Shown: piece after piece, positions 5,056-29,672 of the stretch | How the letters are laid out: the number at the start of each line of letters is the position of its first letter | How positions within the stretch are numbered: position 1 is the first letter of the stretch | Source: a virus | IMG/VR virus record: IMGVR_UViG_3300031612_000039 | Coordinates: 1 to 32,003 of that record | DNA length: 32,003 bases | Strand: one strand, 5' to 3' | Program-made: the position numbers and the translations under genes | Notes under the pieces: generated by a model | Database searches by the model: none | What the model was told of the DNA's origin: nothing | What the model saw: the letters and a program-made list of their open reading frames with translations, nothing else

Positions 5056-5469
5056 CTATTCGCTAAAATTCTCCAACCATGCGTTAGCTTCATCAGAGGT
5101 ATCAAAACCATCACCCATGACTTGCTTATCGCTATTCCTCACAACAGCCCATCCTGAGTCACCGCCTAAATGTTTGACAGTGTATATGGAGTTGTCAGCA
5201 GGAGCGTTGAAGTTATCTAGTACTACATAATCCCTGAGACATACGTTAGCCCAGTTCTTACCAGAGGCAGTTACAATCAACTCTGCAAAGAACTTACCGT
5301 CCCGGGGCAATACTTCTATTCGTGCCATCGGTCCTAATAAGTTTGCTACGTTTGTCCAGTACTCTCTTTTCAACATATCTTCTATTGTCACCCCGGGTGG
5401 TGGAGTGATCGCGAACACGTTTCGTACAAATTCTGCGTTCTTAAATTTATTACTTGCGAGTGGTTTCAT
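5056..5469 (-). CDS. Unknown protein between decoration and tail adaptor genes
   Basis: 137 residues, mixed alpha/beta, no signal peptide and no membrane segment. I do not recognise a family. A strand-rich middle (ARIEVLPRDGKFFAELIVTA) and a C-terminal half resembling a small repeat domain (IYTVKHLGGDSGWAVVRNSD, then DEANAWLENF) are visible. It is the first gene after the terminator at 5491-5518, so its transcription needs read-through or a new start. It has its own ribosome site (TAGGAG before ATG 5469). Its place suggests a head-completion or minor virion role, but that is inference. Confidence 0.6.
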   Translation of the reverse strand: MKPLASNKFKNAEFVRNVFAITPPPGVTIEDMLKREYWTNVANLLGPMARIEVLPRDGKFFAELIVTASGKNWANVCLRDYVVLDNFNAPADNSIYTVKHLGGDSGWAVVRNSDKQVMGDGFDTSDEANAWLENFSE

Positions 5470-5518: not shown

Positions 5519-5559
5519 CCCAAGATACCACCACCACAGTAAAACATCTATAGTCTAGA

Positions 5560-5909: not shown

Positions 5910-6743
5910 TTAAGCGCCTGCTGCGAATCCAGAGCCGTCGTGGTTTACCACGATAACACCTTCGTTCTGCAGAAGTTGTGAGCCCATATACACAGTACAA
6001 CGAGCGAATGAGTAATCATTTTCTTCGTTGTATCCAACTTGTGTTTGAATACCACCACTGTTGATCGCATGACCAATAGCTGATTTGTGATATATGAAAC
6101 ACTTCTCAGCGCTTGTTGCTGCACCGGGTAAGCCTGTATGAACAATGAAGTTAACACCAGCCCAACGGAAGAACATGTTCTTACCGGAGAAAGGTTTGTT
6201 ATCAACAAAGTCAGCACTAGCGAACTCAGTAGTCTGCATCAAGTATGAGTAGAAAGCTGGAGTAATTAACGCGGAGATGTTTCCGTCAAATGGTACATCA
6301 GCGTTGCCCAGTAACGTAGTAGCATGCATAACCAAGTCCAAACTGGCTTGAGTAGTGGCACCGGTATTAACCGTTCCAGTATTAAGCTCAGTAATGATGT
6401 CATCATCAATTTTCCGATTGATAACATGCATTGAGGTTTCTTGCATGATCCGGCGTTGATCACCTTGTGAAGCAAAGATGTTGAAGCCGGTTTTCTTTGG
6501 TACGTCATGCCATTCCACCAATGTTGCGGTGTTTTGGGTTAGTGCGTCAGCACGTCCGGGTATAAGACCATTAAGACCACGGGTAACTGCAGCAGCGTCA
6601 CCGGAATCAGCAACTAAAAATGTAGCTGTATTACCTTTGACTTCTACTTCAGTCGTTACGGTGTCCCGAGCGTATGATTGTAGACGCTCGAAGCCTTGAA
6701 TAAATTCTTGTCTATATTGCGTTTGGAATGCGGATTCAGCCAT
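5910..6743 (-). CDS. Major capsid protein
   Basis: 277 residues, directly downstream of the scaffold and a promoter-like site. It starts MAESAFQTQYRQEFIQGFE, followed by a strand-rich N-arm (VEVKGNTATFLVADSG), then the RRIMQETSMHVINRKIDDDI helix, TPAFYSYLMQTTEFASADFV, a loop region with PFSGKNMFFRWAGVNFIVHT and a C-terminal strand CTVYMGSQLLQNEGVIVV. This order fits a compact HK97-fold capsid protein of the type used by podoviruses. The ribosome site AGGGGAGG before ATG 6743 is strong, as expected for the most abundant virion protein. The assignment rests on sequence pattern plus the scaffold-capsid gene order. Confidence 0.83.
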   Translation of the reverse strand: MAESAFQTQYRQEFIQGFERLQSYARDTVTTEVEVKGNTATFLVADSGDAAAVTRGLNGLIPGRADALTQNTATLVEWHDVPKKTGFNIFASQGDQRRIMQETSMHVINRKIDDDIITELNTGTVNTGATTQASLDLVMHATTLLGNADVPFDGNISALITPAFYSYLMQTTEFASADFVDNKPFSGKNMFFRWAGVNFIVHTGLPGAATSAEKCFIYHKSAIGHAINSGGIQTQVGYNEENDYSFARCTVYMGSQLLQNEGVIVVNHDGSGFAAGA

Positions 6744-6894
6744 TTGGGCCTCCCCTATAAAAGTTGAAAATAGAATCTTTCCCTATTAGCAAAGTCTCAG
6801 GGGTGCCTTTTGGATGCTGTCCCCGGGTGTCTTCTAGAGATCGGGAGCAACAAACTACTTGGGCCTTACACTTACTATATTAAATACTTCCCAA

Positions 6895-6923
6895 ATAGTA
6901 CTGACTTAATACGCATATATCAA
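6895..6923 (-). promoter_or_regulatory. Candidate late promoter for the capsid gene (TATGCG class)
   Basis: On the minus strand TTGATA (6923-6918), a 17-base spacer that begins TATGCG, and TACTAT (6900-6895) make a sigma70-like promoter. It lies five bases past the scaffold stop codon and would start RNA near 6888, leaving a leader of about 145 bases before the capsid ATG. An inverted repeat AATACG...CGTATT (6908-6930) surrounds the -35 area. The spacer motif recurs at 10570-10598 and 14218-14246. The 6744-6928 gap holds no gene that I can see. Confidence 0.5.
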
Positions 6924-6928
6924 CCGTA

Positions 6929-7822
6929 TTACTTAACTCCTTTGTGTTTTTCCTGCATCTCAAGAAGTTCCCGGTACCGGTTCTGCATCTTCACAGCACC
7001 GGAGCCCTTGTAGTATGGACCCTCCTTACCTTTACCCATCTCTTTATTAATGGACTCGATTTCATTCTCTACGGTATCTATCGCGGAGGCTCCAGCTTGT
7101 GGAACTACCGTGCCTAAAGGATTTAGCTGTCTGGCGACATTATTAAGCCATCTCAACATCGTCGGGTTACTAGCTACTGGGGTTCCGTCTTCTAACCTAG
7201 CGGTCCAGAGTCCTTCTTTAACTCCCGGAGGTGCGGTGTCTAAAAAGGCATTGATCATGTTGAGATTCTTTTTCAACTCTCCACCCCATACGTCCTCTGA
7301 TGTTAGTTCCTCCCGGGCGTTTAATTCAGCTTCTGCATCCTCCCGGTTTTGATTCTCGAGGAATTCTTCCTTCTGTCGTATCTGAGCATTGACGATAGCA
7401 CTCACTTCTTTGTTAGATAAATTCAGCTCGTGTGCTAACTTCTGGAACTCTTCAACGGCAGGTAGGTCTCCGTCACCAAGTACAAGTCCTGTTTCTAAAT
7501 CCATCTTATAGTCTGTTGGTGTCTTCGGAATATCGTTAGCCTCACGATAATCTATTACCTCTCCTTCTGAGGAATCCTTGTCGGGTTTTCCTTTTGCCTT
7601 CACACTGCCTATCTTATTCTGTGCTTCTATCCCGGCTTTGAGTGCATCGTCCCGGGTGCCGTATCGTTCTAGCCTCTTGAGGAGCTTCTCGTCTCCATCG
7701 GCTATTTTTAGCCTTTCAGCTTCCCATCCCGTAGGTTCGACCTTCTCTTCTACTACCTCTTCTACCGCCGTCTCTTCTACCACTGCCTCTTCTACTACCT
7801 CTTCTACGATATCTTCAGCCAT
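6929..7822 (-). CDS. Capsid scaffolding protein
   Basis: 297 residues, very acidic at the N-terminus (repeats of EEVVEE/VVEET over residues 4-28) and helical with charged coiled-coil-like segments. A LKIADGDEKLLKRLERYG segment followed by YREANDIPKTPTDYKM is typical of podovirus scaffolds, as is the C-terminal basic helix (MQNRYRELLEMQEKHKGVK) that would bind capsid subunits. Position between connector and capsid genes is canonical. Scaffold proteins guide procapsid assembly and then leave. Confidence 0.85.
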   Translation of the reverse strand: MAEDIVEEVVEEAVVEETAVEEVVEEKVEPTGWEAERLKIADGDEKLLKRLERYGTRDDALKAGIEAQNKIGSVKAKGKPDKDSSEGEVIDYREANDIPKTPTDYKMDLETGLVLGDGDLPAVEEFQKLAHELNLSNKEVSAIVNAQIRQKEEFLENQNREDAEAELNAREELTSEDVWGGELKKNLNMINAFLDTAPPGVKEGLWTARLEDGTPVASNPTMLRWLNNVARQLNPLGTVVPQAGASAIDTVENEIESINKEMGKGKEGPYYKGSGAVKMQNRYRELLEMQEKHKGVK

Positions 7823-7846
7823 CTTATTCTCCTGTGTGTGTGGGTG

Positions 7847-8128
7847 TTATTCTTGTTTCTTTAATAGCGCTGCTACATTAAGACTCATTAGTTTCACAAC
7901 TTGCAAACCAACAAATCTACGACCCGAACCAAAAGCATGGTCCCGATCATTAGTTCTATACTCAACGTCTTGATAATTTGAGGCCCCGTGCAGTATCCAC
8001 TCTAGTGCTCGGAGTTGTTGTTGTTTATTGGCTTCCCCCACCGCTAGGGCTTGGATAGCCGTAGCATCTGCTGGTACATATTTTGGGGGTATTAACGGAC
8101 TTGGTTGTTCAATCTTCTTCGTGGGCAT
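7847..8128 (-). CDS. Small conserved phage protein (Bbp19-like)
   Basis: 93 residues. The C-terminal half carries DHAFGSGRRFVGLQVVKLMS, matching the (F/A)xGRRFVGLQxxKLxxLN signature of small proteins coded between connector and scaffold in many podoviruses (Bordetella phage Bbp19-like). Function is unknown; location suggests a minor head or assembly role. A GGAGCAG ribosome site lies before ATG 8128, which is 13 bases past the connector stop. Confidence 0.65.
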   Translation of the reverse strand: MPTKKIEQPSPLIPPKYVPADATAIQALAVGEANKQQQLRALEWILHGASNYQDVEYRTNDRDHAFGSGRRFVGLQVVKLMSLNVAALLKKQE

Positions 8129-8141
8129 TTACTGCTCCTTA

Positions 8142-9788
8142 TTATGGTCCCTCCGGTGGTGCTATTCCTCCCGGGGGTTGTACACTACCTATATTCTTAG
8201 CGACTTCTGATCCTACCTTCATCTGTTCCATCATCTGTGCCTGTTCTTGCTGTTTAGCTTCGTTCTTCGCGATCTCTGCTACTTCTCCCGCAGATCTTAT
8301 CCACTTAGCCGGGACACCACTACCATGCAATGTGTCTCGTACCCCGACAGCAGCATCTATTGTGTGTCTGACGTTTGGATCAATAGCAGATATGTTTGCA
8401 ATGAGTGACGCAGCTTCAAGTAACCTCTGACCTTTCTGGCGTTCTAGCGCATCGTGCAGTGGAGACTCAAATACAAACTCAACATTGCGGTCTTTTAGTT
8501 CGTCCGGGACCTCATACGGGCTACCAAACACTCCGTTTTCCAACAACATCTCGAACGTGTTCTCACATATCGGAGTATTCGACTCTGATTCCATCGGCTC
8601 AAAGAGTGGCAACGCATTGCGGATATATTCTTCTACTCTCTTCCCGGTTTCAAACGCTGTCATCTCTACATCTTGTGGAGGTAGTGATAATTTATCTAAA
8701 AAGAAAGCCTTGACTAGCTGATCCTGTAAAGTATCAGCCATCATAAATCCTGTTGGTAGTCCTGATTTATCAACCGTTAGCGGTCTTAACACTTCCCCTA
8801 ACCGTTCATCATATTCTGAGTCAACCCAAGTTAATCCTCCTGCCATTAAGTTCACATCTGATCTTAATGCGCCCTTCACACCGAGTAGTGGGGGATTGGT
8901 AGACTTTTCTCCAGCCTCCAGTAATGTTATTGTCATTTCCTGAAGAGTTCGTGCATCAGATAAGGCTACGACTGTTGCTGGGGAATAAGCGTACTGCGAC
9001 CCTGATACGGTCTGCCATCTCGGTATAATATATTCTTGTCTTTTGGAACCTACTTCTTCCATGATGTGGTTGTTTTCGGTATCAAAGTAGACACCTACGA
9101 ACGGAGTCTTTATATCCTCTGCAAAAGGACCTGATACTTCAACTGGCATAATCGCATGCCATACTTTAATCTTCTCGTTTGAGTGTCCGTTTTTAATCTT
9201 AGTGTGGACCTCCTCGTGGCAGCTCTTTGGGAATAATTTCACCAATTCTGCTGCAGTAGGCTCCCACTTACGGAACACCGTAGCTATCTTGTTGTCTGTA
9301 TCAGCCACCCAAGCTACATCTCTTAGGTGCCAGCACCTATACAGTAACCCGTTAGCTGTACTGTTTAACGAAAGTTGTATTACATCCTGTCCGAACGCTG
9401 CGAAATCGTGATCGCCTTGCTTCATCGCGATAACAAACTGTGTATCTTTATGATACATCGCCTTACGCATCCTATCTTCTGCTTTTTCTAACCACCTCTT
9501 AGCTTCCGTGCCTACCGTGTCCCAATTTTCTACCTGTATATGGAACCACTTCTTACTCGTAGGCCGTAGCATACCACTAAAGGCATTACCTAGATCACGA
9601 CGGACCATCAGTGGAAAACCCGTAGCAAGATCAGACGCGAAGTCTTCTCCTAGAGTTCTGTCCACGGTAAAGTCTGCACGTTCCGGGTAAAAGTTGGATG
9701 CTATTTCTTGCCAGTAATACATCAGGCTACCCCGGTTACCGAATAGCTGCATCCCTTGTTGTTTTATGAACGCTTCTTTTGATTGCAT
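8142..9788 (-). CDS. Head-tail connector (portal) protein, podovirus type
   Basis: 548 residues, the usual size of the podovirus connector family (Head-tail_con). Visible hallmarks: MYYWQEIASNFYPERADFT near residue 23; ATGFPLMVRRDLGNAFSGML; FRKWEPTAAELVKLFP; YIIPRWQTVSGSQYAYSPAT followed by ALSDARTLQEM, the conserved GSxYGxSPAxxALxDxxTLN-like motif; and the helix TAFETGKRVEEY. The Gln/Pro-rich end is expected to be disordered. Twelve copies form the ring through which DNA is packaged and ejected. It lies four bases after the 179-residue gene and upstream of the Bbp19-like and scaffold genes. Confidence 0.93.
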   Translation of the reverse strand: MQSKEAFIKQQGMQLFGNRGSLMYYWQEIASNFYPERADFTVDRTLGEDFASDLATGFPLMVRRDLGNAFSGMLRPTSKKWFHIQVENWDTVGTEAKRWLEKAEDRMRKAMYHKDTQFVIAMKQGDHDFAAFGQDVIQLSLNSTANGLLYRCWHLRDVAWVADTDNKIATVFRKWEPTAAELVKLFPKSCHEEVHTKIKNGHSNEKIKVWHAIMPVEVSGPFAEDIKTPFVGVYFDTENNHIMEEVGSKRQEYIIPRWQTVSGSQYAYSPATVVALSDARTLQEMTITLLEAGEKSTNPPLLGVKGALRSDVNLMAGGLTWVDSEYDERLGEVLRPLTVDKSGLPTGFMMADTLQDQLVKAFFLDKLSLPPQDVEMTAFETGKRVEEYIRNALPLFEPMESESNTPICENTFEMLLENGVFGSPYEVPDELKDRNVEFVFESPLHDALERQKGQRLLEAASLIANISAIDPNVRHTIDAAVGVRDTLHGSGVPAKWIRSAGEVAEIAKNEAKQQEQAQMMEQMKVGSEVAKNIGSVQPPGGIAPPEGP

Positions 9789-9791
9789 GTA

Positions 9792-10331
9792 TTAAGCTCC
9801 CAGAGAATCGCCTTCGCTACTAGATAACATCGTGCTTGAACGTCCTCCCGTCGCGCGTTGTTTTCTAATACTTAGTTTCTTAGCGTTCTTCAGGCGATCA
9901 CTATCTTGCATCGGGAGAGCTGTCGCCTCCGGTGTGCTACTAGCATTCGGCAGAATTATATCTCCACCTGTTTTCATCGCTGTGCTTAATAGGCTTGCTC
10001 CTACACTACCCGCCCCTATGACATTAGACGCAGTAAATGCACTACTAGCCGCGCTACTAGCGACGGGCGCTAGTGATGCTAATGACAGCCCTGTACCTGC
10101 GCTTGCCGCCGCACCAGCTCCTGCTAATGAAGTCCCTGCTCCAGTGAACGCGGCTACCTGAGAAGCCATAGTCATCGCACTTGCTCCGGTTCCGATAGCT
10201 CCCGCACCAGCAGTGAGTCCCGTAGCAGCTCCCAAAGCAGACCCTATCGATCCTATCGCTCCTAGCGCTGCAGTCCCGGCGCTGGCTAACATACTGCCTG
10301 CCGCCACAGCTATTGGGATCATAAACGGCAT
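9792..10331 (-). CDS. Ala/Gly/Ser-rich small virion-like protein with GGRxST tail
   Basis: 179 residues. Residues 1-115 are low-complexity Ala/Gly/Ser with Val/Ile/Leu, hydrophobic enough to act as membrane-seeking or loosely packed helices. After that comes a charged segment (DRLKNAKKLSIRKQRATG) and the end GGRSSTMLSSSEGDSLGA. The C-terminal GGRxST-(M/L)LS...LG pattern also ends the neighbouring 70-residue protein. No enzyme motif is seen. Position between large terminase and connector suggests a minor virion component, possibly ejected. Function unknown. Confidence 0.55.
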   Translation of the reverse strand: MPFMIPIAVAAGSMLASAGTAALGAIGSIGSALGAATGLTAGAGAIGTGASAMTMASQVAAFTGAGTSLAGAGAAASAGTGLSLASLAPVASSAASSAFTASNVIGAGSVGASLLSTAMKTGGDIILPNASSTPEATALPMQDSDRLKNAKKLSIRKQRATGGRSSTMLSSSEGDSLGA

Positions 10332-10332
10332 C

Positions 10333-10545
10333 TTAACCGCCGCCTAGCTTTTCATCCGACAGTAGAGTACTCCCTCTTCCTCCTGTCTTAGCGCTTGCCA
10401 TTGTCGCTCTACGTCTCGCGACTTTCGTGACATCCTTATCATCCTTCGGTGCGAGTTTGTTTCTTCGCTCTAATTCTTCCGCCGCGAGTACAGCGCGACT
10501 CTTTGGTTTTGGTTTTTTCGGTGGTCCTGAAAACATACTTGGCAT
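10333..10545 (-). CDS. Small basic protein with GGRxST tail
   Basis: 70 residues, very Lys/Arg-rich (PPKKPKPKSRAVLAAEELER, then KVARRRATMASAKTGGRGST). It ends GGRGSTLLSDEKLGGG, the same tail as the adjacent 179-residue protein. Short proteins ending GRxSTLL...LG occur near the connector in many phages; their role is unknown. A strong AAGGAGG precedes ATG 10545, and a promoter-like site lies just upstream. One base separates its stop from the next start. Confidence 0.6.
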   Translation of the reverse strand: MPSMFSGPPKKPKPKSRAVLAAEELERRNKLAPKDDKDVTKVARRRATMASAKTGGRGSTLLSDEKLGGG

Positions 10546-10569
10546 ACACCCTCCTTAGATTAAGTTGCT

Positions 10570-10598
10570 AAAGTAACACAATTGTACGCATAGATTAA
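10570..10598 (-). promoter_or_regulatory. Candidate late promoter before the connector unit (TATGCG class)
   Basis: On the minus strand TTAATC (10598-10593), a 17-base spacer beginning TATGCG (10592-10587) and TACTTT (10575-10570). The hexamers are weak on their own; the call rests on alignment with the sites at 6895-6923 and 14218-14246. RNA would start near 10563 and include the AAGGAGG of the 70-residue gene. It lies in the 56-base gap after the large terminase stop (TGA at 10604-10602). Confidence 0.38.
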
Positions 10599-10601
10599 GT
10601 A

Positions 10602-12194
10602 TCAACGCGATCTCCTGTTAGCCTTTACTTTGTGTCTCGACCCCATGTTTACTTTAGGGTCTCTTCCTGCAGCGCCACCAACCCACCCACCTGCTAGGTT
10701 TGCTTGGAGCACCCCATCGTAGTAACACATAATTACTGCATCACCTTCATCTGTCGAACGTCCTAATCTCTTGCAGACATCCTCCTTAGACTCTACTGCC
10801 ATCGAAGCTCCGTGCATCTTTCCCTTGACTTTATATGAGGGAGCACACAGATCAGCTTTGAGGGTTACGCTTGGAGGTAAAGATACCATCGAGCCCCCGG
10901 GTTGTGAGGGGTCTAACGCTTCCCTAAGTTTCCAGAAGGCTTCGGTCCTCACGTTGGTAAAAGAAAACTTACCATCCTTGGATTTCTTAATACTACCTTT
11001 AACTCCCATGTAAGCCATCGCGTCAATGCCGTTCTTCATCAAGTGTCCGTAACAATCGGCACCCCAACCGCCGCCGACATCTACTATCACCTTCGCGTTG
11101 TCTCTTCTTTCTGATACTACCCGGCCTGCTTGTTTCTTAGCGTCCGATATCTCGTTCCCGGGCACCACCGTAGCTTTGTTGAACCACCCGTCATGTCTTG
11201 TCTGTATCACGTACTTATCTTTAGCAATCGCGATATCTACTCCCATCGCACACATCGGTACTCCTGCTGGTATCTCCGGGGTCCATCTCTTCTGTGCGTC
11301 GGTTACCCACTGAGTAGGTATCACCTGCCAAGGGTTATCTCGTAATGCGGTACCAAAGTCTCCGTCTCTATACGCTGCTCTCAATTCTTGTGGGAGTGAA
11401 TCTAAGTTAGCTTGATAGTCTGTAGTGTTCATCAGGTCTGGATTGTCCTGCAGAGACGCGGGTAAGTAAGTTCTCGAACGAGCATACACTTCTCTTCCGT
11501 CTACCCAGTGGGGCCCTCGCCCGTCCACCTCTATCTCCTGATCCTGACTTGTCGTGTACCATCTCAACTCTCCGGGTTTAGCCGGTTTAGTATGTTGTGG
11601 ATCTAACCACGCAGACCATCGTTCTACTACCCATAGTCCTTCTGGTCTAGTCGGCGGGTTTCCACCACAGACCACCCGGCATCTCTGTCCCTTAGTAACT
11701 GTCCTGTTCCATGCGATAATGAATTCATACTGGGATCTTTCAAAGTCTGATACCTCATCGAAGTAGTACAGATCTCTTGGGATGCCCTTGTACTTCTGCT
11801 TATCCTTCTCTTCGTTGCATCCACCTAGGGCTACCAGTTTACCGTAGGGCCTACGCCATACTCCGGCTTGAATACCACCCCAGCCGTCTCTGTTGCCTAT
11901 GATCGCTTCCATCCTATCTACCAGTTCGTTCACCTCTTTACTGGTGCGTCGTAGTATCAAAGATCTTGTGTGCGCTGTCAGGGCTAACCCAATTCCTAGA
12001 TCTGTCTTACCCCCTCCTGCTTGTCCTCCATAGAACAGCTCATCCGCCTTGCAGAAGTATGCCTCGGTTTGTGGACCGGGGTTAGGAACCCATATCTGTT
12101 CCTTAACACTCTCGTTAACCATTGCATTGAGTAGTTCCTCTTCTTCTGCAGGAACCCCCTCTAGTACGTCGAGTATCTCTTTCAGGCTATTCAC
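10602..12194 (-). CDS. Terminase large subunit
   Basis: 530 residues. The ATPase half shows Walker A GGQAGGGKT at 56-64, an SLILRRTSKEV segment, and Walker B YYFDEVSDFE near 145. The nuclease half starts with MCAMGVDIAIAKDKYVI (first catalytic Asp), then KVIVDVGGGWGADCYGHL (second acidic site) and a later conserved RxxxxWKLREALDP area and GDAVIMCYYDG end. It is the motor that cuts concatemeric DNA and pumps it through the connector. The small subunit is four genes upstream rather than adjacent, with virion-like genes between them. Confidence 0.95.
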   Translation of the reverse strand: MNSLKEILDVLEGVPAEEEELLNAMVNESVKEQIWVPNPGPQTEAYFCKADELFYGGQAGGGKTDLGIGLALTAHTRSLILRRTSKEVNELVDRMEAIIGNRDGWGGIQAGVWRRPYGKLVALGGCNEEKDKQKYKGIPRDLYYFDEVSDFERSQYEFIIAWNRTVTKGQRCRVVCGGNPPTRPEGLWVVERWSAWLDPQHTKPAKPGELRWYTTSQDQEIEVDGRGPHWVDGREVYARSRTYLPASLQDNPDLMNTTDYQANLDSLPQELRAAYRDGDFGTALRDNPWQVIPTQWVTDAQKRWTPEIPAGVPMCAMGVDIAIAKDKYVIQTRHDGWFNKATVVPGNEISDAKKQAGRVVSERRDNAKVIVDVGGGWGADCYGHLMKNGIDAMAYMGVKGSIKKSKDGKFSFTNVRTEAFWKLREALDPSQPGGSMVSLPPSVTLKADLCAPSYKVKGKMHGASMAVESKEDVCKRLGRSTDEGDAVIMCYYDGVLQANLAGGWVGGAAGRDPKVNMGSRHKVKANRRSR

Positions 12195-12214
12195 TTACAC
12201 CTGTTCCTGACAAT

Positions 12215-12559
12215 TTAAACTGTCGAGTGGACGTAACCTATCTGCATCCCAACAGCAGTACCGCTTCCAAGCGTACAGTTGAGAGCCTCGTTGGCTGCCG
12301 TCTCAAACCAACCATTGGGGTTGTACGGCAACACTAGGGACTCCAATGTCGCAAATCCCATCAACGGCATAATCGCTGTAGTTGCTGAATTGAACTGTAC
12401 GGTGTTAGCTCCCCCGGCGCAGTTTAATGCCAGCCATACCACTCTGATCTTGACGTTGGCTGCTGCTGCGGCTACTAGTGCTTGAGCGCTTCCTGTTGCT
12501 GGGTTAACGGTAGCTATTATCGTTCCGCTTTTATGTCTTGCTATATTCGATCCTGCCAT
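12215..12559 (-). CDS. Small beta-rich protein between terminase genes
   Basis: 114 residues, Ala/Val/Thr/Asn-rich with predicted strands (IRVVWLALNCAGGANTVQFN, LESLVLPYNPNGWFET, MQIGYVHST). The look is of a small all-beta virion protein such as a decoration or fibre-associated subunit. Similar short proteins are often coded near head genes, but I cannot name a family. An AAGGAGAT ribosome site precedes ATG 12559. The virion role is inferred. Confidence 0.5.
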   Translation of the reverse strand: MAGSNIARHKSGTIIATVNPATGSAQALVAAAAANVKIRVVWLALNCAGGANTVQFNSATTAIMPLMGFATLESLVLPYNPNGWFETAANEALNCTLGSGTAVGMQIGYVHSTV

Positions 12560-12572
12560 AAGTTATCTCCTT

Positions 12573-12665
12573 TTAGCCTTGCGCCAACATATATGGCTTC
12601 TTCTTCTTAGCTGGGACCGGCGGTCTTCCTCGTTTCTTACCGTATGTACCTTTTCCTTGGGGCAT
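12573..12665 (-). CDS. 30-residue basic protein (MPQGKGTYGKKRGRPP type)
   Basis: A 30-codon frame reads MPQGKGTYGKKRGRPPVPAK, then a Lys run and PYMLAQG. Short phage proteins starting MP-x-GKGTYGxxxGRPPKK recur in many tailed phages. The AT-hook-like KRGRPP core is visible and would suit DNA or RNA minor-groove binding. AGGAG sits eight bases before ATG 12665, and its stop lies in the leader of the 114-residue gene. Function unknown; too short for routine gene callers. Confidence 0.68.
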   Translation of the reverse strand: MPQGKGTYGKKRGRPPVPAKKKKPYMLAQG

Positions 12666-12696
12666 ATTATTTCTCCTATCTATATGTATATTCAGG

Positions 12697-12723
12697 GAGG
12701 GACCCTCGTGAGAAGGCCCCCTC
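12697..12723 (-). other. Composite stem-loop after the jelly-roll gene
   Basis: GAGGG and CCCTC pair around an inner CC/GG and CTC/GAG stem with small bulges, 17 bases past the stop codon of the 269-residue gene. No T-run follows on the minus strand, so it may be an mRNA 3' stabiliser or a Rho-dependent pause rather than an intrinsic terminator. Confidence 0.4.
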
Positions 12724-12739
12724 GCAAGTGGCTACTTAA

Positions 12740-13549
12740 TTAAGCAGCACCCCCAACAGCAGCCCGGTCCATTGATACGTATATGTAATCAACGTCTAGG
12801 GTATAAGAATCCGTACCACTCAAGTTACTGGTGTATACGACAGGGCATAGATCTGTAGCTGGAGTAAGTGCTCCTGTCATAGCTGTTCCAACAGGAAGTC
12901 CATTACGGAAGAACTTAGCCACACCTAACACGTCTATCTCGACTCTTAGTGTTTCATAATCAGCCGCAACCGGAGAAGCTGCTGAGTCTTGTTCAGTCGC
13001 ATCTGTGTTAGCAGCTACACCTACCATTCTCCAAGTGTCAGTGGTAGCTGCTGTATCGAACATCCAGCCTACTGCATCTGAAGCGTTAGTCGTGAATGTA
13101 GTTCCGCTTAGTGTTACTGGAGCTTCAACTCCGGTAGCTACATCAGTGAACCCTACAAAGGTGTAAGCGTTAGTGATACGTGAGTGTTTGATCCTTGTTT
13201 CAAATACAAGGTTGTCATTACTCGCTTGCCACTGTAGTGCGCCGTTTACGGTTACCGCATCAGCAGCTACCCCGGAACCTGCGTTACCAGTAGTCAACCG
13301 AGCAACTCCGCCTATCCCACCAGCTAATATAGCTGCTGTTGCTTGAGCATCTGATCCTTCTGCAGATAGCCAGTTATCCGTTGATAGTGTATCCCCAACG
13401 AAGTCATCTAACAGTACTGCGGTGTACGGTGAAGGAACTAGGAACTGATTGCCCTTTGATCCAACTCCTAAACCTTGCTTGGCTAGTACGTTCTCATTGT
13501 GATCCACGCCTAACTTACGTCCATATATGTTATGTAAAAATGCTGTCAT
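12740..13549 (-). CDS. Concanavalin/laminin-like jelly-roll virion protein
   Basis: 269 residues. After a 40-residue N-terminal stretch (FLHNIYGRKLGVDHNENVLA) comes LLDDFVGDTLSTDNW, the usual opening of lectin-like jelly-roll domains. Alternating strands follow (NLVFETRIKHSRITNAYTFV, TDTWRMVGVAANTD, YETLRVEIDVLGVAKFFRNG), and the domain ends SYTLDVDYIYVSMDR. Such domains in phage heads or fibres bind sugars or decorate capsids. The start overlaps the small terminase stop (ATGA). Fold by pattern; virion location inferred. Confidence 0.62.
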   Translation of the reverse strand: MTAFLHNIYGRKLGVDHNENVLAKQGLGVGSKGNQFLVPSPYTAVLLDDFVGDTLSTDNWLSAEGSDAQATAAILAGGIGGVARLTTGNAGSGVAADAVTVNGALQWQASNDNLVFETRIKHSRITNAYTFVGFTDVATGVEAPVTLSGTTFTTNASDAVGWMFDTAATTDTWRMVGVAANTDATEQDSAASPVAADYETLRVEIDVLGVAKFFRNGLPVGTAMTGALTPATDLCPVVYTSNLSGTDSYTLDVDYIYVSMDRAAVGGAA

Positions 13550-14211
13550 AATTTAATCTCCTTAGTTACAATTGTAGAATTCCCTTGTACTTCCTCAGTT
13601 GACACATCTACTGTGTCTTCTTTAGCTCTCAATGCGCTGTTCAGCACGAACGCTAATCTCCTACCCTTATCGTGTAGTGACATCTCTGCCATCTCGATTG
13701 GTCCTCCTCCCTTCCCGGTTACTTCATGCTTCTCACTCGGAAAGAGTCCTAGGACCTTGGATAACGATTCGAGCGCAGGCATCTTCGGTATGAACTTATA
13801 CTTGAATGTTCTCCTGAAGTTCTTGTCTGCGCCTTCCTCTGTGTAATCAAAGCCAGCGATGCATGCTGCCATATCATCATCTAACTCATGTATATCTTTA
13901 GCGGTACCGTCTTCCTTAAACATTCTCCTTGGATCGAAGTACGCTATCCGGGCATACTCCTTCAAGTTACGGTTCTCGGTTATCTTCAACTTCCGCGCGT
14001 CTGCCTTCCTTCTTCTCTCGATCTCAACCGTTACCGCGTACTCTCGAGGTATCGTGCTGTTGGTATACCCGGCAGCTCTCGCGGCCCGGGAGGCATTCAT
14101 ATCTACCATGTACTCGTCGACGTACTTCTGGCCTTTCGCTGATATCGGCTTAGGTTCACGGTCCTCACTAATACTAGGAGGTATCAGGTCGTCGATGTCA
14201 GTATCGCTCAT
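13546..14211 (-). CDS. Terminase small subunit
   Basis: 221 residues. KGQKYVDEYMVDMNASRAAR followed by AAGYTNST is the helix-turn-helix signature of the Terminase_2 small subunit family. ARIAYFDPRRMFKEDG and KYKFIPKMPALESLSKVLGL also match the family. The protein recognises the packaging site and regulates the large subunit. Only seven bases separate a promoter-like -10 element (14218-14223) from the ATG, and no Shine-Dalgarno is present, so the message may be leaderless. Overlaps the next gene by ATGA. Confidence 0.9.
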   Translation of the reverse strand: MSDTDIDDLIPPSISEDREPKPISAKGQKYVDEYMVDMNASRAARAAGYTNSTIPREYAVTVEIERRRKADARKLKITENRNLKEYARIAYFDPRRMFKEDGTAKDIHELDDDMAACIAGFDYTEEGADKNFRRTFKYKFIPKMPALESLSKVLGLFPSEKHEVTGKGGGPIEMAEMSLHDKGRRLAFVLNSALRAKEDTVDVSTEEVQGNSTIVTKEIKL

Positions 14212-14217
14212 AAGCCG

Positions 14218-14246
14218 ACAATATCGATATATCGCGCATATATCAA
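14218..14246 (-). promoter_or_regulatory. Candidate late promoter for the terminase unit (TATGCG class)
   Basis: On the minus strand TTGATA (14246-14241), a 17-base spacer starting TATGCG (14240-14235) and TATTGT (14223-14218). The first 12 bases (TTGATATATGCG) are identical to the capsid-promoter copy. The -35 overlaps the stop codon of the preceding gene. RNA would start at about the A of the small terminase ATG. A 7-bp hairpin GATATAT/ATATATC and the palindrome CGATATATCG are embedded in the spacer. Confidence 0.5.
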
Positions 14247-15274: not shown

Positions 15275-15490
15275 CTATTGTAGGGTTACCCGGTAAAAGA
15301 TCAAGGTGTACTCGCCTTGATCATCCCATTCAAACTCCCGGGCTGCTTCAACCTCCTCATGTTCACCCAGCGCTGACATAACCCGGACATTCATCCAAGG
15401 TGGCACTGGCATCTCTCTCCCCTCTTCGGAGAAGATGAAATCATCGCGGTCCACGGGCATCCATGATGTCCACTTATCGAGAACCTTCAT
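15275..15490 (-). CDS. Unknown small acidic protein
   Basis: 71 residues from ATG 15490 (MKVLDKWTSWMPVDRDDFIF). Acidic, with a C-terminal strand pair (EFEWDDQGEYTLIFYRVTL). GGAGAG eight bases upstream supports this start; an upstream GTG at 15544 would add 18 residues but has no ribosome site at a useful distance. No family recognised. First full gene after the repeat-rich gap that follows the primase-helicase. Confidence 0.55.
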   Translation of the reverse strand: MKVLDKWTSWMPVDRDDFIFSEEGREMPVPPWMNVRVMSALGEHEEVEAAREFEWDDQGEYTLIFYRVTLQ

Positions 15491-15512
15491 AATATATCTC
15501 TCCGTAGAGTAG

Positions 15513-15557
15513 TTAAAACCGTGAGCAGCTCTCTTGATTATCACTAGCCGTGCTCAT
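15513..15557 (-). CDS. Possible 14-codon leader peptide
   Basis: ATG 15557 opens MSTASDNQESCSRF then TAA. An ideal AAGGAG sits six bases upstream, inside a GA-repeat. The strength of this site with so short a frame suggests a leader peptide that sets translation of the 71-residue gene 23 bases further on, or simple decay of an older gene. Sequence evidence is only the ribosome site plus frame. Confidence 0.3.
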   Translation of the reverse strand: MSTASDNQESCSRF

Positions 15558-15786
15558 CTCTCTCTCCTTATAGAGAGAGAGAGTGAGCGAGCGCTGTGGA
15601 TATGTGCGTTTTAAAGAGCAACATCAATAACTTACCCTATTTCCTTATCGCTCATTTGCTCACTCACTAAAAGAGCCAGGAATTGATAGCCTTTTTCCCT
15701 TTATAATCAACGACTATTAGAACCTTTTTGTAAAAATACCAAAAACGCGCTCTTTTGATTGCTCACTTGCTCTTTTGGTAAAGAGC
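15558..15786. repeat. Gene-free repeat region with GCTC iterons, AT-rich core and GA tract
   Basis: The longest gap in the window (229 bases) holds repeated GCTC units. GCTCATTTGCTC is at 15650-15661 and GCTCACTTGCTC at 15761-15772. GCTCTTTTG occurs at 15749 and again exactly 20 bases on at 15769, and more GCTC/GAGC units are scattered through the gap. A perfect hairpin GCTCTTT-TGGT-AAAGAGC (15769-15786) abuts the primase-helicase stop. The middle (about 15680-15745) is AT-rich, and a GAGAGA tract lies at 15572-15582. The arrangement (iterons plus AT-rich stretch beside a replication gene) fits an origin or a multi-site operator. No gene is visible. Confidence 0.5.
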
Positions 15787-17814: not shown

Positions 17815-17992
17815 GGAAATGATCTCCGGTTATTAAATAAATAAAAGTACCTGCATAAGACTACTCTAAAAAATATTAAAAGTGCAAGGAAAAACTAATT
17901 AATGTCTTTTTAAAGAAATATGTTGACTTTTTAAAAACATGCATGTTATTTTGTTGATGGGTCTAAAGAAGTACCATAACCGAGGATACAAA
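17815..17992. promoter_or_regulatory. Divergent intergenic control region
   Basis: This AT-rich gap of 178 bases separates the leftward late-direction block from the rightward early block. It contains the early promoter listed separately. For the leftward primase-helicase I see only a weak candidate: TTGCAC near 17887, with poor -10 matches 17-18 bases on. CGGAGA precedes its ATG at 17814. No gene is visible in the gap; the frame that starts at 17939 lacks a ribosome site. Confidence 0.5.
17923..17951 (+). promoter_or_regulatory. Early promoter with palindromic operator in the spacer
   Basis: TTGACT (17923-17928), 17 bases, TTATTT (17946-17951): a reasonable sigma70 promoter reading right into the early genes, with transcription expected near 17958. 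The perfect 12-bp palindrome AACATGCATGTT (17936-17947) spans the spacer and touches the -10. That is a good place for a dimeric repressor to block RNA polymerase. No repressor gene is recognised in the window. Confidence 0.55.
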
Positions 17993-20551: not shown

Positions 20552-20576
20552 ACTAATTTATTAAAGAGGGCTATTG

Positions 20577-20960
20577 ATGGACGACACACTGTACGCGATG
20601 AAGACTGATTTTTATATATCTCTCGATCTCGAGGAGAAATCCCAAAACTCTTTTGACGGGTCCGCACTCCACATCCTTTTCCTCCGCGATGTCATCGAGA
20701 TATTAACCCGGGAAAAAGTTAAACATTTTTTCCTCACGGATTACAGTGAATTCGCAATGGGTGAAAAAAGGAAAGGAGTAAAAGTTACCATTATGCACCC
20801 TTATGACGACGATGCCGATGAACCTAACTTCGAGGCTACTTTACAGTGTGACCGGGTAGCTCAAAAGTTTAGGTCAAACTTTCATTTAGGTAATGTCCTA
20901 GTTATACATTCCGAGGTCGCAGGCAAATTAGTAACTGGAAAGGAGATCCCCGATGCTTAA
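20577..20960 (+). CDS. Unknown protein
   Basis: 127 residues from ATG 20577 (MDDTLYAMKTDFYISLDLEE); GAGGG eight bases upstream. Alpha/beta by eye: LHILFLRDVIEILTREKVKH, KGVKVTIMHPYDDDADEPNF and LGNVLVIHSEVAGKLVTG. Soluble, acidic, no family recognised. Its end overlaps the next gene. Confidence 0.58.
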   Translation: MDDTLYAMKTDFYISLDLEEKSQNSFDGSALHILFLRDVIEILTREKVKHFFLTDYSEFAMGEKRKGVKVTIMHPYDDDADEPNFEATLQCDRVAQKFRSNFHLGNVLVIHSEVAGKLVTGKEIPDA

Positions 20961-21177: not shown

Positions 21178-21434
21178 TGAAAAAGTTAGAAGACAAGACT
21201 ATTGACGAGCTATTGCCGATGGTAACTACCGAGCTAGAAGGAGAGTTAATGGTACGGCTATGTGAAGCAACGATAGAAGATGTCGCAGAGGAAGAAGAAG
21301 AAGTATTCATGGAGGTCGAGGTTGATTTTGAAGACCTTGAGGAAAAAGAGATGATGCCGATATACGTCGCGCAGGTTATATGCGCCTGTGGAATGCTAGT
21401 TACGGCGGCTAGTATATTAATATTCATTTGTTAG
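21177..21434 (+). CDS. Acidic tail-anchored membrane protein
   Basis: 85 residues. The soluble part is dominated by Glu/Asp (VAEEEEEVFMEVEVDFEDLE), and a hydrophobic segment PIYVAQVICACGMLVTAASI ends at the C-terminus (about 62-85). So it should be C-tail anchored with a negative cytoplasmic domain. The start shares its A with the previous stop (TGATG). No family recognised. Confidence 0.57.
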   Translation: MKKLEDKTIDELLPMVTTELEGELMVRLCEATIEDVAEEEEEVFMEVEVDFEDLEEKEMMPIYVAQVICACGMLVTAASILIFIC

Positions 21435-21454
21435 TTAATAAAAAGGGGCAAAAG

Positions 21455-21802
21455 ATGGGAATTGAACAAGACATTAAAGACATTAAGATAGCGATAGAAG
21501 AACTCCGGGCTGATCTTGCATCCTCCCGGGCAAGCAATAAAGCAAAAACAAAAACAGTAGCTGAAAAGCTGACGGCAAAAGCAGCACCGGCAGAAAAAAT
21601 AAGTGTCGAAGTTACTTTTGGTGAGGTTCGCAAAGAGGTTATTGAGTGGATAACGCCACAGGTTAAGAAAGATAAGCAGGCCGGGACAGCGGTGATGCAA
21701 AAACTGCTAAAGCAGTTCACCGGGGGCGAACCTTTCCAGTCAGAGTTTGTCCCGGCTAAAAACTTTGGTGCCATACTAGCGTATGTGAGGAGTACTAAAT
21801 AA
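21455..21802 (+). CDS. Small protein upstream of the DUF2800 nuclease
   Basis: 115 residues from ATG 21455 (MGIEQDIKDIKIAIEELRAD). N-terminal coiled coil, Ala/Lys-rich linker, and a C-terminal domain: VTFGEVRKEVIEWITPQVKK, then AVMQKLLKQFTGG and ILAYVRSTK. This resembles short phage proteins near single-strand-annealing or nuclease genes. The stop and next start overlap as TAATG, which links it to the DUF2800 gene. Function unknown. Confidence 0.58.
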   Translation: MGIEQDIKDIKIAIEELRADLASSRASNKAKTKTVAEKLTAKAAPAEKISVEVTFGEVRKEVIEWITPQVKKDKQAGTAVMQKLLKQFTGGEPFQSEFVPAKNFGAILAYVRSTK

Positions 21803-27417: not shown

Positions 27418-28820
27418 AGAGGATACCTTTTAAAGCGAGAGAGTATCAGAAGCTGGCAATTGATTTCATCATGGACAATCCACGTTGTGGAGTTTGGGCC
27501 GAGATGGGCCTAGGTAAAACGGTATCTGCACTGACAGCCGGAAACCAGTTGGAGTCTATAGGATTCAAAGGACCCACGTTGATCATTGCTCCCCTGCGGG
27601 TTGCCCGTAGCGTGTGGACAGATGAGTCACGGAAGTGGGAACACCTATCAGGTACCAGTGTCATGCCAATACTCGGCACTGAGTCCGAGCGAAGAAGGGC
27701 CCTTAACTATGACGCTCAATACTACACTATTAATTATGAGAACATCCCTTGGTTGGTTGAGTACCTTGGTGATAGGTGGCACTTCAGGAATGTGATTGCT
27801 GACGAGTCTACTAAGCTGAAAGGTTTCCGCACCCGCCAAGGTACGGAACGTGCGAAGATGTTAGCCCGGGTGATACATACTAAGGTCAAGAGGTATGTAG
27901 GACTAACTGGCACACCTGCACCCAACGGGTTGATGGACCTCTGGGGACAGACTTGGATGATCGATAGGGGCCACAGGTTAGGGCTTTCTTACAGTGGGTT
28001 CAGAGACCGGTGGTTTAATTCAGATTACATGGGACGATCCTTCACACCCCGGGAGAACGCGCATAAGGAAATATACGCTGCGCTGTCTGATATATGTATA
28101 TCCCTCCGGGCTAAAGATTGGTTCGATTTAAAAGACCCAATAGTTAACAACATCTACGTTGACCTCCCGGTGAAGGCGCGAAAGATATATGACAAGATGG
28201 AAAAAGAATTTTATATTGAGTTGGAGGGGAAAGGGATCGAGGCGTTCAATGCTGCGGTAGTGTCAGGTAAGCTGCTGCAGATAGCTAATGGGGCAGCCTA
28301 TGTGGACCCGGACGCATACACTGACGATCAACCTACGGCTAAAGAATGGAAGCTCATACACGATACTAAGTTAGATGCTTTGGAAGAGGTTATAGAGGAG
28401 GCTGCAGGAATGCCCGTGCTAGTGGCGTACAACTTCCGTAGTGATCTCGCAAGACTTATGAAGGCGTTCCCCAAGGGGAGACCTTTGGATGACAGCACAG
28501 AGACGATAGAACAGTGGAACAGAGGAGAGATACCAATACTATTTTCTCACCCGGCAAGTGCAGGACATGGATTGAACCTGCAGTACGGAGGTAATATCAT
28601 TTGTTTCTTCGGTCACAACTGGAACCTCGAGCATAGGATGCAGATGTTAGAACGTATCGGTCCAGTGCGGCAACTCCAAGCTGGCTTTGATCGCCCGGTT
28701 TTTGTACATAACATTATCGCTAGGGAGACAATGGATGAGGTAGTCCTACAGAGGATTGAAGGCAAGAAAGATATACAAGAACTTTTACTAGAAGCTATGA
28801 AGAAGAGGAGAAAGAAATGA
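27414..28820 (+). CDS. SNF2/DEAD-type superfamily 2 helicase
   Basis: 468 residues. REYQKLAIDFI (Q-like motif), MGLGKT (31-36, Walker A), VIADESTKLK near 126 (motif II, DEST rather than DExH), LTGTPAPNGLMDLWGQ (motif III), and the C-terminal domain with HPASAGHGLNLQYGG and ERIGPVRQLQAGF (motif VI-like, with Ile-Gly-Pro-x-Arg where most have a QxxGRxxRxGQ form). These traits define the phage SNF2-like helicases found in DUF2800/DUF2815 cassettes. Probably aids fork repair or recombination. Confidence 0.9.
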   Translation: MKRIPFKAREYQKLAIDFIMDNPRCGVWAEMGLGKTVSALTAGNQLESIGFKGPTLIIAPLRVARSVWTDESRKWEHLSGTSVMPILGTESERRRALNYDAQYYTINYENIPWLVEYLGDRWHFRNVIADESTKLKGFRTRQGTERAKMLARVIHTKVKRYVGLTGTPAPNGLMDLWGQTWMIDRGHRLGLSYSGFRDRWFNSDYMGRSFTPRENAHKEIYAALSDICISLRAKDWFDLKDPIVNNIYVDLPVKARKIYDKMEKEFYIELEGKGIEAFNAAVVSGKLLQIANGAAYVDPDAYTDDQPTAKEWKLIHDTKLDALEEVIEEAAGMPVLVAYNFRSDLARLMKAFPKGRPLDDSTETIEQWNRGEIPILFSHPASAGHGLNLQYGGNIICFFGHNWNLEHRMQMLERIGPVRQLQAGFDRPVFVHNIIARETMDEVVLQRIEGKKDIQELLLEAMKKRRKK

Positions 28821-29429: not shown

Positions 29430-29672
29430 ATGAGTCCAAAAATTAATAAGTCTTCGCAAGCACCGTGCCGGACAGCCTATGACACTGAGCATGAGCTAGA
29501 GTTCATTGATAACTTAGGAACTTACTCGAAGAAAATAGGGATAACCCGGGAGCAGTTGCTGACTAACTACACGATTGCTTCGATGACCCGTAAGCGATGG
29601 GGAAAGATAGATTTACAGACCGCACAGAACCATGCTGTCTTTGCTATTCTGGAAGAGCAAGATCCCGGGTGA
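29430..29672 (+). CDS. Last early-strand gene, unknown
   Basis: 80 residues. RTAYDTEHELEFIDNLGTYS, then a helix-turn-helix-like TREQLLTNYTIASMTRKRWG and an acidic end. Could be a small DNA-binding protein, not certain. Its last 29 bases overlap the 3' end of the convergent Rz gene. Confidence 0.57.
   Translation: MSPKINKSSQAPCRTAYDTEHELEFIDNLGTYSKKIGITREQLLTNYTIASMTRKRWGKIDLQTAQNHAVFAILEEQDPG

Follow-up and report, generated by a model that had tools for sequence, protein, structure and literature searches.

Analysis of the 32,003 bp virus record IMGVR_UViG_3300031612_000039 (the window, or W, which is this whole stretch of DNA and is an incomplete record) revealed a class of promoter-like sites at the junctions of its late genes. 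Judged from sequence, the class consists of a -35 element TTGAT, a clade-specific box reaching to about -24, a 17 bp spacing and a -10 of the form TANNNT, and it differs from the early promoters in these genomes, which are of the TTGACA type. We put the probability at roughly 0.6 that these sites serve as late promoters in a podovirus dependent on host RNA polymerase, and that they are switched on via the box by a putative phage regulator. This promoter class was not described in the literature searched.

Predicted late promoters of the window

The identity of W as a podovirus was indicated by its portal (phrog_332), capsid (phrog_3437), terS (phrog_51) and terL (phrog_979) genes. Its late genes lie on the minus strand and most of its replication genes on the plus strand. 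The three predicted late promoters, designated A, B and C, and the main genes of the units that they head were as follows.

14218-14246, minus strand: late promoter A (terS), -35 and box TTGATATATGCG (14246-14235), N11, -10 TATTGT (14223-14218)
10570-10598, minus strand: late promoter B (connector cluster), TTAATCTATGCG, N11, TACTTT
6895-6923, minus strand: late promoter C (capsid), TTGATATATGCG, N11, TACTAT
13546-14211, minus strand: terminase small subunit, in the unit headed by A (phrog_51, E=4e-16)
8142-9788, minus strand: head-tail connector/portal, in the unit headed by B (phrog_332, E=4e-76)
5910-6743, minus strand: major capsid protein, in the unit headed by C (phrog_3437, E=5e-62)

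An earlier reading made from the sequence alone (the sequence-only reading) had described three minus-strand sites of the form hexamer, TATGCG, N11, hexamer, two of them with an identical 12-mer, each at or just past a stop codon and each in front of a distinct unit. All of this was borne out. The sites lie exactly where that reading had placed them, and TTGATATATGCG is present at both A and C. Site A overlaps the TGA stop codon at 14245-14243, site B starts 3 bases beyond the terL stop and site C starts 5 bases beyond the stop of 6929-7822; the units are those of terS, the connector cluster with the portal, and the capsid. The 12-base signal common to the three sites was TTGATmTATGCG. Agreement with the sigma70 consensus (TTGACA, TATAAT) was 9/12 at A and C. 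The -10 of A is followed by the terS ATG at 14211, 6 nt further on, site B is followed by a short 5′ untranslated region with AAGGAGG ahead of the ATG at 10545, and site C is followed by a long 5′ leader up to the ATG at 6743.

TATGCG alone was not enriched in W (15 found, 12 expected). In the noncoding late-strand DNA of W it was seen three times against 0.24 expected (Poisson P=0.002). The exact 12-mer was found twice in the record, and TTRATMTATGCG-N11-TANTNT had no copies beyond the three sites. The full pattern gave three perfect matches in W, and shuffled sequences averaged 1.8 matches with 3 mismatches allowed; this pattern was derived from the three sites themselves, so the independent evidence is their conservation in a relative.

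Conservation of the sites in a relative

The relative IMGVR_UViG_3300038825_001243 (49,967 bp), designated G1, shares ~67-83% identity with W over the main alignable segments. Approximately 18 kb of G1 lies between the parts that match the two ends of W, which shows W to be incomplete. All three sites are carried by G1 at orthologous gene junctions.

G1 6146, minus strand: site A, TTGATATATGCG-N11-TAATCT, with the -10 also 6 nt before the ATG
G1 2477, minus strand: site B, TTAATCTATGCG-N11-TATTTT
G1 48292, minus strand: site C, TTGATCTATGCG-N11-TACTAT

Alignment of W and G1 at these sites revealed 35/36 identical positions in the 12-mer and 13/33 in the next 11 bases (Fisher p=1e-7). For TATGCG alone, 18/18 positions were identical compared to 13/33 for the rest of the spacer (p=1e-5). 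The 12-mer of site A is noncoding in one of the two phages and falls in another reading frame in the other, so its conservation is not accounted for by coding constraint. The comparison supports the view that the bases directly after the -35 are under selection.

A scoring matrix was built from the six sites (three each from W and G1). These scored 26-28 and stood clear of the next best matches, which scored 10.7 in W and 17.7 in G1; the latter is on the opposite strand, inside a giant gene. A fourth, weaker copy was present in G1 at 28667 (TAGATCTATGCT-N11-TAACAT), abutting the giant gene's stop codon, with an ATG 6 nt further on. This region is missing from W, and three other relatives (G8, G10 and G11) have class sites at the same junction. 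The enrichment upstream of genes in relatives, on which the sequence-only reading depended, was found in G1, with three sites in each of the two genomes and the weaker fourth in G1.

Early promoters of the same phages

The divergent region of W encodes an early rightward promoter.

17923-17952, plus strand: early rightward promoter, TTGACT-N18-TATTTT, with TG before the -10 and no TATGCG

Its counterpart in G1 is TTGACA-N18-TACCTT. By our own reading, the leftward promoter of this region has TTGCAC or TTGACT with 18 bp spacing in the two phages. No TATGCG was found in the divergent-region early promoters of W and G1. The box is therefore not a feature of every promoter of the phage, which agrees with its having been proposed as a trait of late sites. 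The opposite, early strand of the near-complete relatives G10 and G11 carries TTGACA-N17-TGATACNNT, and across several lineages the late -35 is TTGAT whereas the early -35 is mostly TTGAC.

The same geometry with other boxes

More distant relatives showed no TATGCG, and by sequence the literal box is confined to the lineage of W (W, G1 and near-identical short contigs). One search was unbiased and looked for 12-mers with three or more copies, all at the same distance ahead of TANNNT; a second, seeded search covered 266 related loci (3.9 Mb) and used eleven control heads. G4 had six sites with TTGATGTTTTA, one of them with TCGAT, and G9 had three with TTGATATCAGC. The 12-mer TTGATATTTTA was shared by G8, G10 and G11 at 6-7 sites per genome, with six exact copies in G10 and seven in G11. 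In these last two genomes all copies were on the late strand, the opposite strand had none, and reversed-pattern controls gave 0. Their class sites lie at the terS, terL, capsid and tail junctions, after the giant gene and in the divergent region. G14, which is close to G10 and G11, has TTGATGTT[A/T] at the corresponding junctions.

In the seeded scan the TTRAT head was found in W, G1, G4, G8, G9, G10 and G11, always with 17 bp. The eleven control heads gave one match, a long repeat in L217. This locus, from a Bauldia metagenome-assembled genome, carries three near-identical repeats of ~50 bp (4326, 6630 and 8185) with TTGAAGTGGCTG-N11-TACCTT, possibly a further promoter repeat or a mobile element. 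Among 43 class sites from eight genomes, xAxxxT lay exactly 17 bp away in 39, with 16 or 18 bp in the remainder, and TTGAT was kept in nearly all. The constrained element, as read from these alignments, is TTGATNT with a clade-specific extension (-35 to -24), of which TATGCG is one clade's version. The proposed shared promoter class stood, through its conservation in G1, with the literal TATGCG belonging to the one lineage.

The phage group is diverse and includes prophage relatives in cultured bacteria (Rhizobium, Mesorhizobium and Serratia). A survey of the capsid junction in 161 nonredundant relatives found TTGAC (15) and TTGAT (14) to be the main forms; at the terL junction TTGAT was nearly the sole form. 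TTGACA-type capsid promoters occur in the same phage group (L008/G2, L010, L388 and others). Like the class they lie upstream of the capsid leader with 17 bp and TANNNT, but they have the consensus -35 and no repeated box. On a capsid tree the TTGAT or TTGAC state required ~6 changes and was weakly clustered, and this patchiness led us to reject the class as one clean clade. No TTGAT-type class was found in the cultured relatives HTVC010P, VP5, ZP6, DC33, MZH0603 and Hodr. A scan of IMG/VR with TTGATMTATGCG-N11-TANNNT returned at least about 80 loci, all single matches; among the matches listed, closely related proteins were present only in W's own lineage, and the others are apparently due to chance.

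Site D, terS spacing and the capsid leader

A candidate fourth site of W, designated D, precedes the gene at 5056-5469.

5522-5550, minus strand: candidate site D, TAGATGTTTTAC, N11, TATCTT, identical in G1

A terminator hairpin (5521-5494) directly follows site D, and the predicted start falls in the 5′ arm of this hairpin. At this junction a class site followed by a hairpin is likewise present in G4, G8, G10, G11 and G14. Such an arrangement could stop capsid transcripts and yet spare those of D itself.

In W, G1, G2, G4, G10 and G11 the terS ATG follows the -10 after 6-7 nt despite differing sequence, and in G14 the terL ATG likewise comes shortly after a -10. The retention of this spacing supports the -10 assignments. 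Leaderless terS mRNAs (terL in G14) are predicted from it.

The leader of the capsid mRNA also has features shared between relatives.

6744-6888, minus strand: capsid mRNA leader, with GGC(N)CCC-type repeats common to the capsid relatives inspected

The repeats (GGC(C)ACCC / GGCCCC) were present in the leaders of L008-L067 and L204-L219, including the Rhizobium, Mesorhizobium and Serratia prophages. One stable RNA fold was considered and rejected, as the minimum energy in W was no better than that of shuffled sequences. No Rfam match was found for the leader in the 8 sources searched. On these two grounds it looks like a set of repeated single-stranded motifs. Separately, L018, L032 and L035 carry CCACCGGCAACGACTGAGTG...GCGACAGTCTGA just before the capsid match with an endonuclease-like coding sequence upstream, an arrangement suggestive of a self-splicing intron close to the start of the capsid.

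Search for a regulator or polymerase

Pfam and PHROGs scans of a subset of the open reading frames (ORFs) of W, itself incomplete, recognised no phage RNA polymerase, sigma factor, activator or antiterminator family, in agreement with the earlier statement that the window has no recognisable activator gene. Neither MotA/AsiA families nor relatives of Q, AlpA or GafZ were among the scanned ORFs. PF00940 had no match in W in a search whose controls gave none either. A T7-type or N4-type polymerase was set aside as less likely, as no such domain was recognised in PHROGs scans of the main ORFs or in the giant protein of G1. This protein (G1 28668-40454, minus strand, L220; 3,928 amino acids) is encoded in the virion-gene region, which is absent from W at this point, and showed DUF3293 and weak LPD22 matches.

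Individual candidate regulators were also considered. The 128-amino-acid early protein encoded at 20574-20960 (plus strand) is 40% identical to its G1 counterpart. Its AlphaFold model (predicted local distance difference test, pLDDT, 73) matched the phage S-adenosylmethionine (SAM) lyase 6zm9/6znb and the SAM lyases 9lqd/9lqe (Foldseek E about 1e-4 to 8e-4, VIA Z 10-11) and not a DNA-binding fold. It was rejected as the regulator and is probably a SAM lyase of the phage T3 anti-restriction type. The ORF at 21428-21802 gave no meaningful fold match. Neither these two nor 29430-29672 and 15275-15544 had relatives in the cultured-phage collection. Between 15275-15544 and the primase-helicase gene is a 240 bp noncoding stretch (15545-15786, minus strand) with repeated GAGTGAGCAAATGAGC / GCTCTTT.

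Proposed regulation and alternative explanations

Phages without their own polymerase need a late-gene switch, and beyond T4, lambda, P2 and Mu few examples are known. The sequence-only reading had taken TATGCG as a possible site for an activator encoded by the phage or for a modified polymerase. In the model that we favour, host sigma70 holoenzyme would bind TTGAT...TANNNT only weakly. A phage-specified DNA-binding regulator, made early, would dock on the box (TATGCG in the lineage of W) beside sigma region 4 and contact -35 to -24, so that the terminase, connector, capsid and further late units would be switched on together. Its mode of action is likened to that of T4 MotA or of a lambda Q/AlpA-type factor.

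Several observations weigh against this model. The TATGCG form is known from only two independent genomes, W and G1, and the records of G4, G8 and G9 are, like W, incomplete. The box of site D is GTTTTA in both W and G1, and one regulator would have to tolerate both boxes unless D lies outside the regulon. The scans yielded no activator, and a non-structural gene common to class-bearing genomes and absent from class-lacking relatives was sought with none found. The regulator may accordingly be a host protein, evolve quickly or lack homology from one clade to the next. Bases common to several spacers are not in themselves proof of an activator, since they are also seen in early promoters of Alteromonas phage ZP6. 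In ZP6 (L384), three early-strand promoters (37917, 37173 and 35321, minus strand) share TTGACAnnnGCA...GTGcTACAaT; the spacer has an apparent inverted repeat and could be an operator.

The alternative that survives best, although we regard it as unlikely, is that these are plain host sigma70 promoters, with the box reflecting a preference of host polymerase or spread copies of an ancestral promoter and no phage factor involved. TTGATA, 17 bp and TANNNT would make an acceptable sigma70 promoter, boxes rich in T are similar to the T-rich stretch that follows the -35 in the W and G1 early promoters, and relatives with TTGACA at the capsid junction manage without a box. However, TATGCG is fixed between W and G1 while the adjoining 11 bases vary, and GCG is not an AT-rich preference. 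The lack of the box from early promoters of the same phages and the division between late TTGAT and mostly TTGAC early -35 elements in several lineages are further points against this explanation.

Somewhat less probable again is that the box is the loading site of a Q/AlpA/GafZ-type antiterminator. Here sigma70 alone would initiate, the factor would board the paused polymerase and terminators would be read through. The elements for Q (PMC6606751), AlpA (PMC7969949) and GafZ (PMC11150451) do lie between -35 and -10, there are terminator-like hairpins between late units (e.g. 5521-5494), and G4 is lambda-like with NinB and NinG. Against this, the element is present at 3-7 promoters per genome instead of one, no Q-like gene was found in the scanned ORFs, and the box at -35 to -24 lies further upstream than the 21Q sites, which were tested at -21 and -13 (PMC6606751). 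We think it least probable that the box is an operator from which a repressor is released to turn on late promoters kept off early: spacer operators are common in phages, inverted repeats seem to be present in the spacers of the ZP6 early promoters and a small protein at the divergent region of G10, G11 and G14 looks Cro-like in our reading of the sequence, but the boxes are not palindromes, the element is joined to the -35 in the same phase in all clades, as for a sigma or activator contact, and no Cro-like gene was seen in W and G1.

Extending the activator model beyond W, we tentatively raise the possibility that uncultured podoviruses and prophages of a widespread family have a multi-promoter late regulon in which TTGAT is fixed and the box is rewritten by clade (TATGCG, GTTTTA, ATTTTA, ATCAGC, GTTAT), read by a putative fast-evolving sigma-appropriation factor of no known family. 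The predicted regulon would comprise 3-7 promoters per genome. The natural variation of the box could be used to find the factor, and the early and late promoters offer a clean contrast within one genome. The leaderless terS mRNAs and the promoter nested in a terminator are separately testable predictions.

Comparison with known systems

Counted from the predicted start, the 12-mer spans -35 to -24; the box starts right at the -35 and, within the spacer, extends over the initial part only. The MotA box of T4 middle promoters is centred at -30 (PMC6755090). As with MotA/AsiA, the phage appears to lack its own RNA polymerase, a box at ~-30 accompanies a normal -10 and many promoters would be served by one factor (PMC6755090). 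Unlike the MotA box, which replaces the -35, the box described here leaves TTGAT in place; the -10 is only TANNNT, late genes are served, the box varies by clade and no MotA/AsiA relative was found in the scanned ORFs. The lambda and 21 Q, AlpA and GafZ systems would be alike in having the site of the factor inside the promoter, in the vicinity of or between -35 and -10, late phage or phage-like genes as targets and host sigma70. They differ in loading an antiterminator at one or two promoters, whereas the box described here adjoins the -35 and is repeated at most late junctions, a layout that fits an activator better than a Q-type antiterminator.

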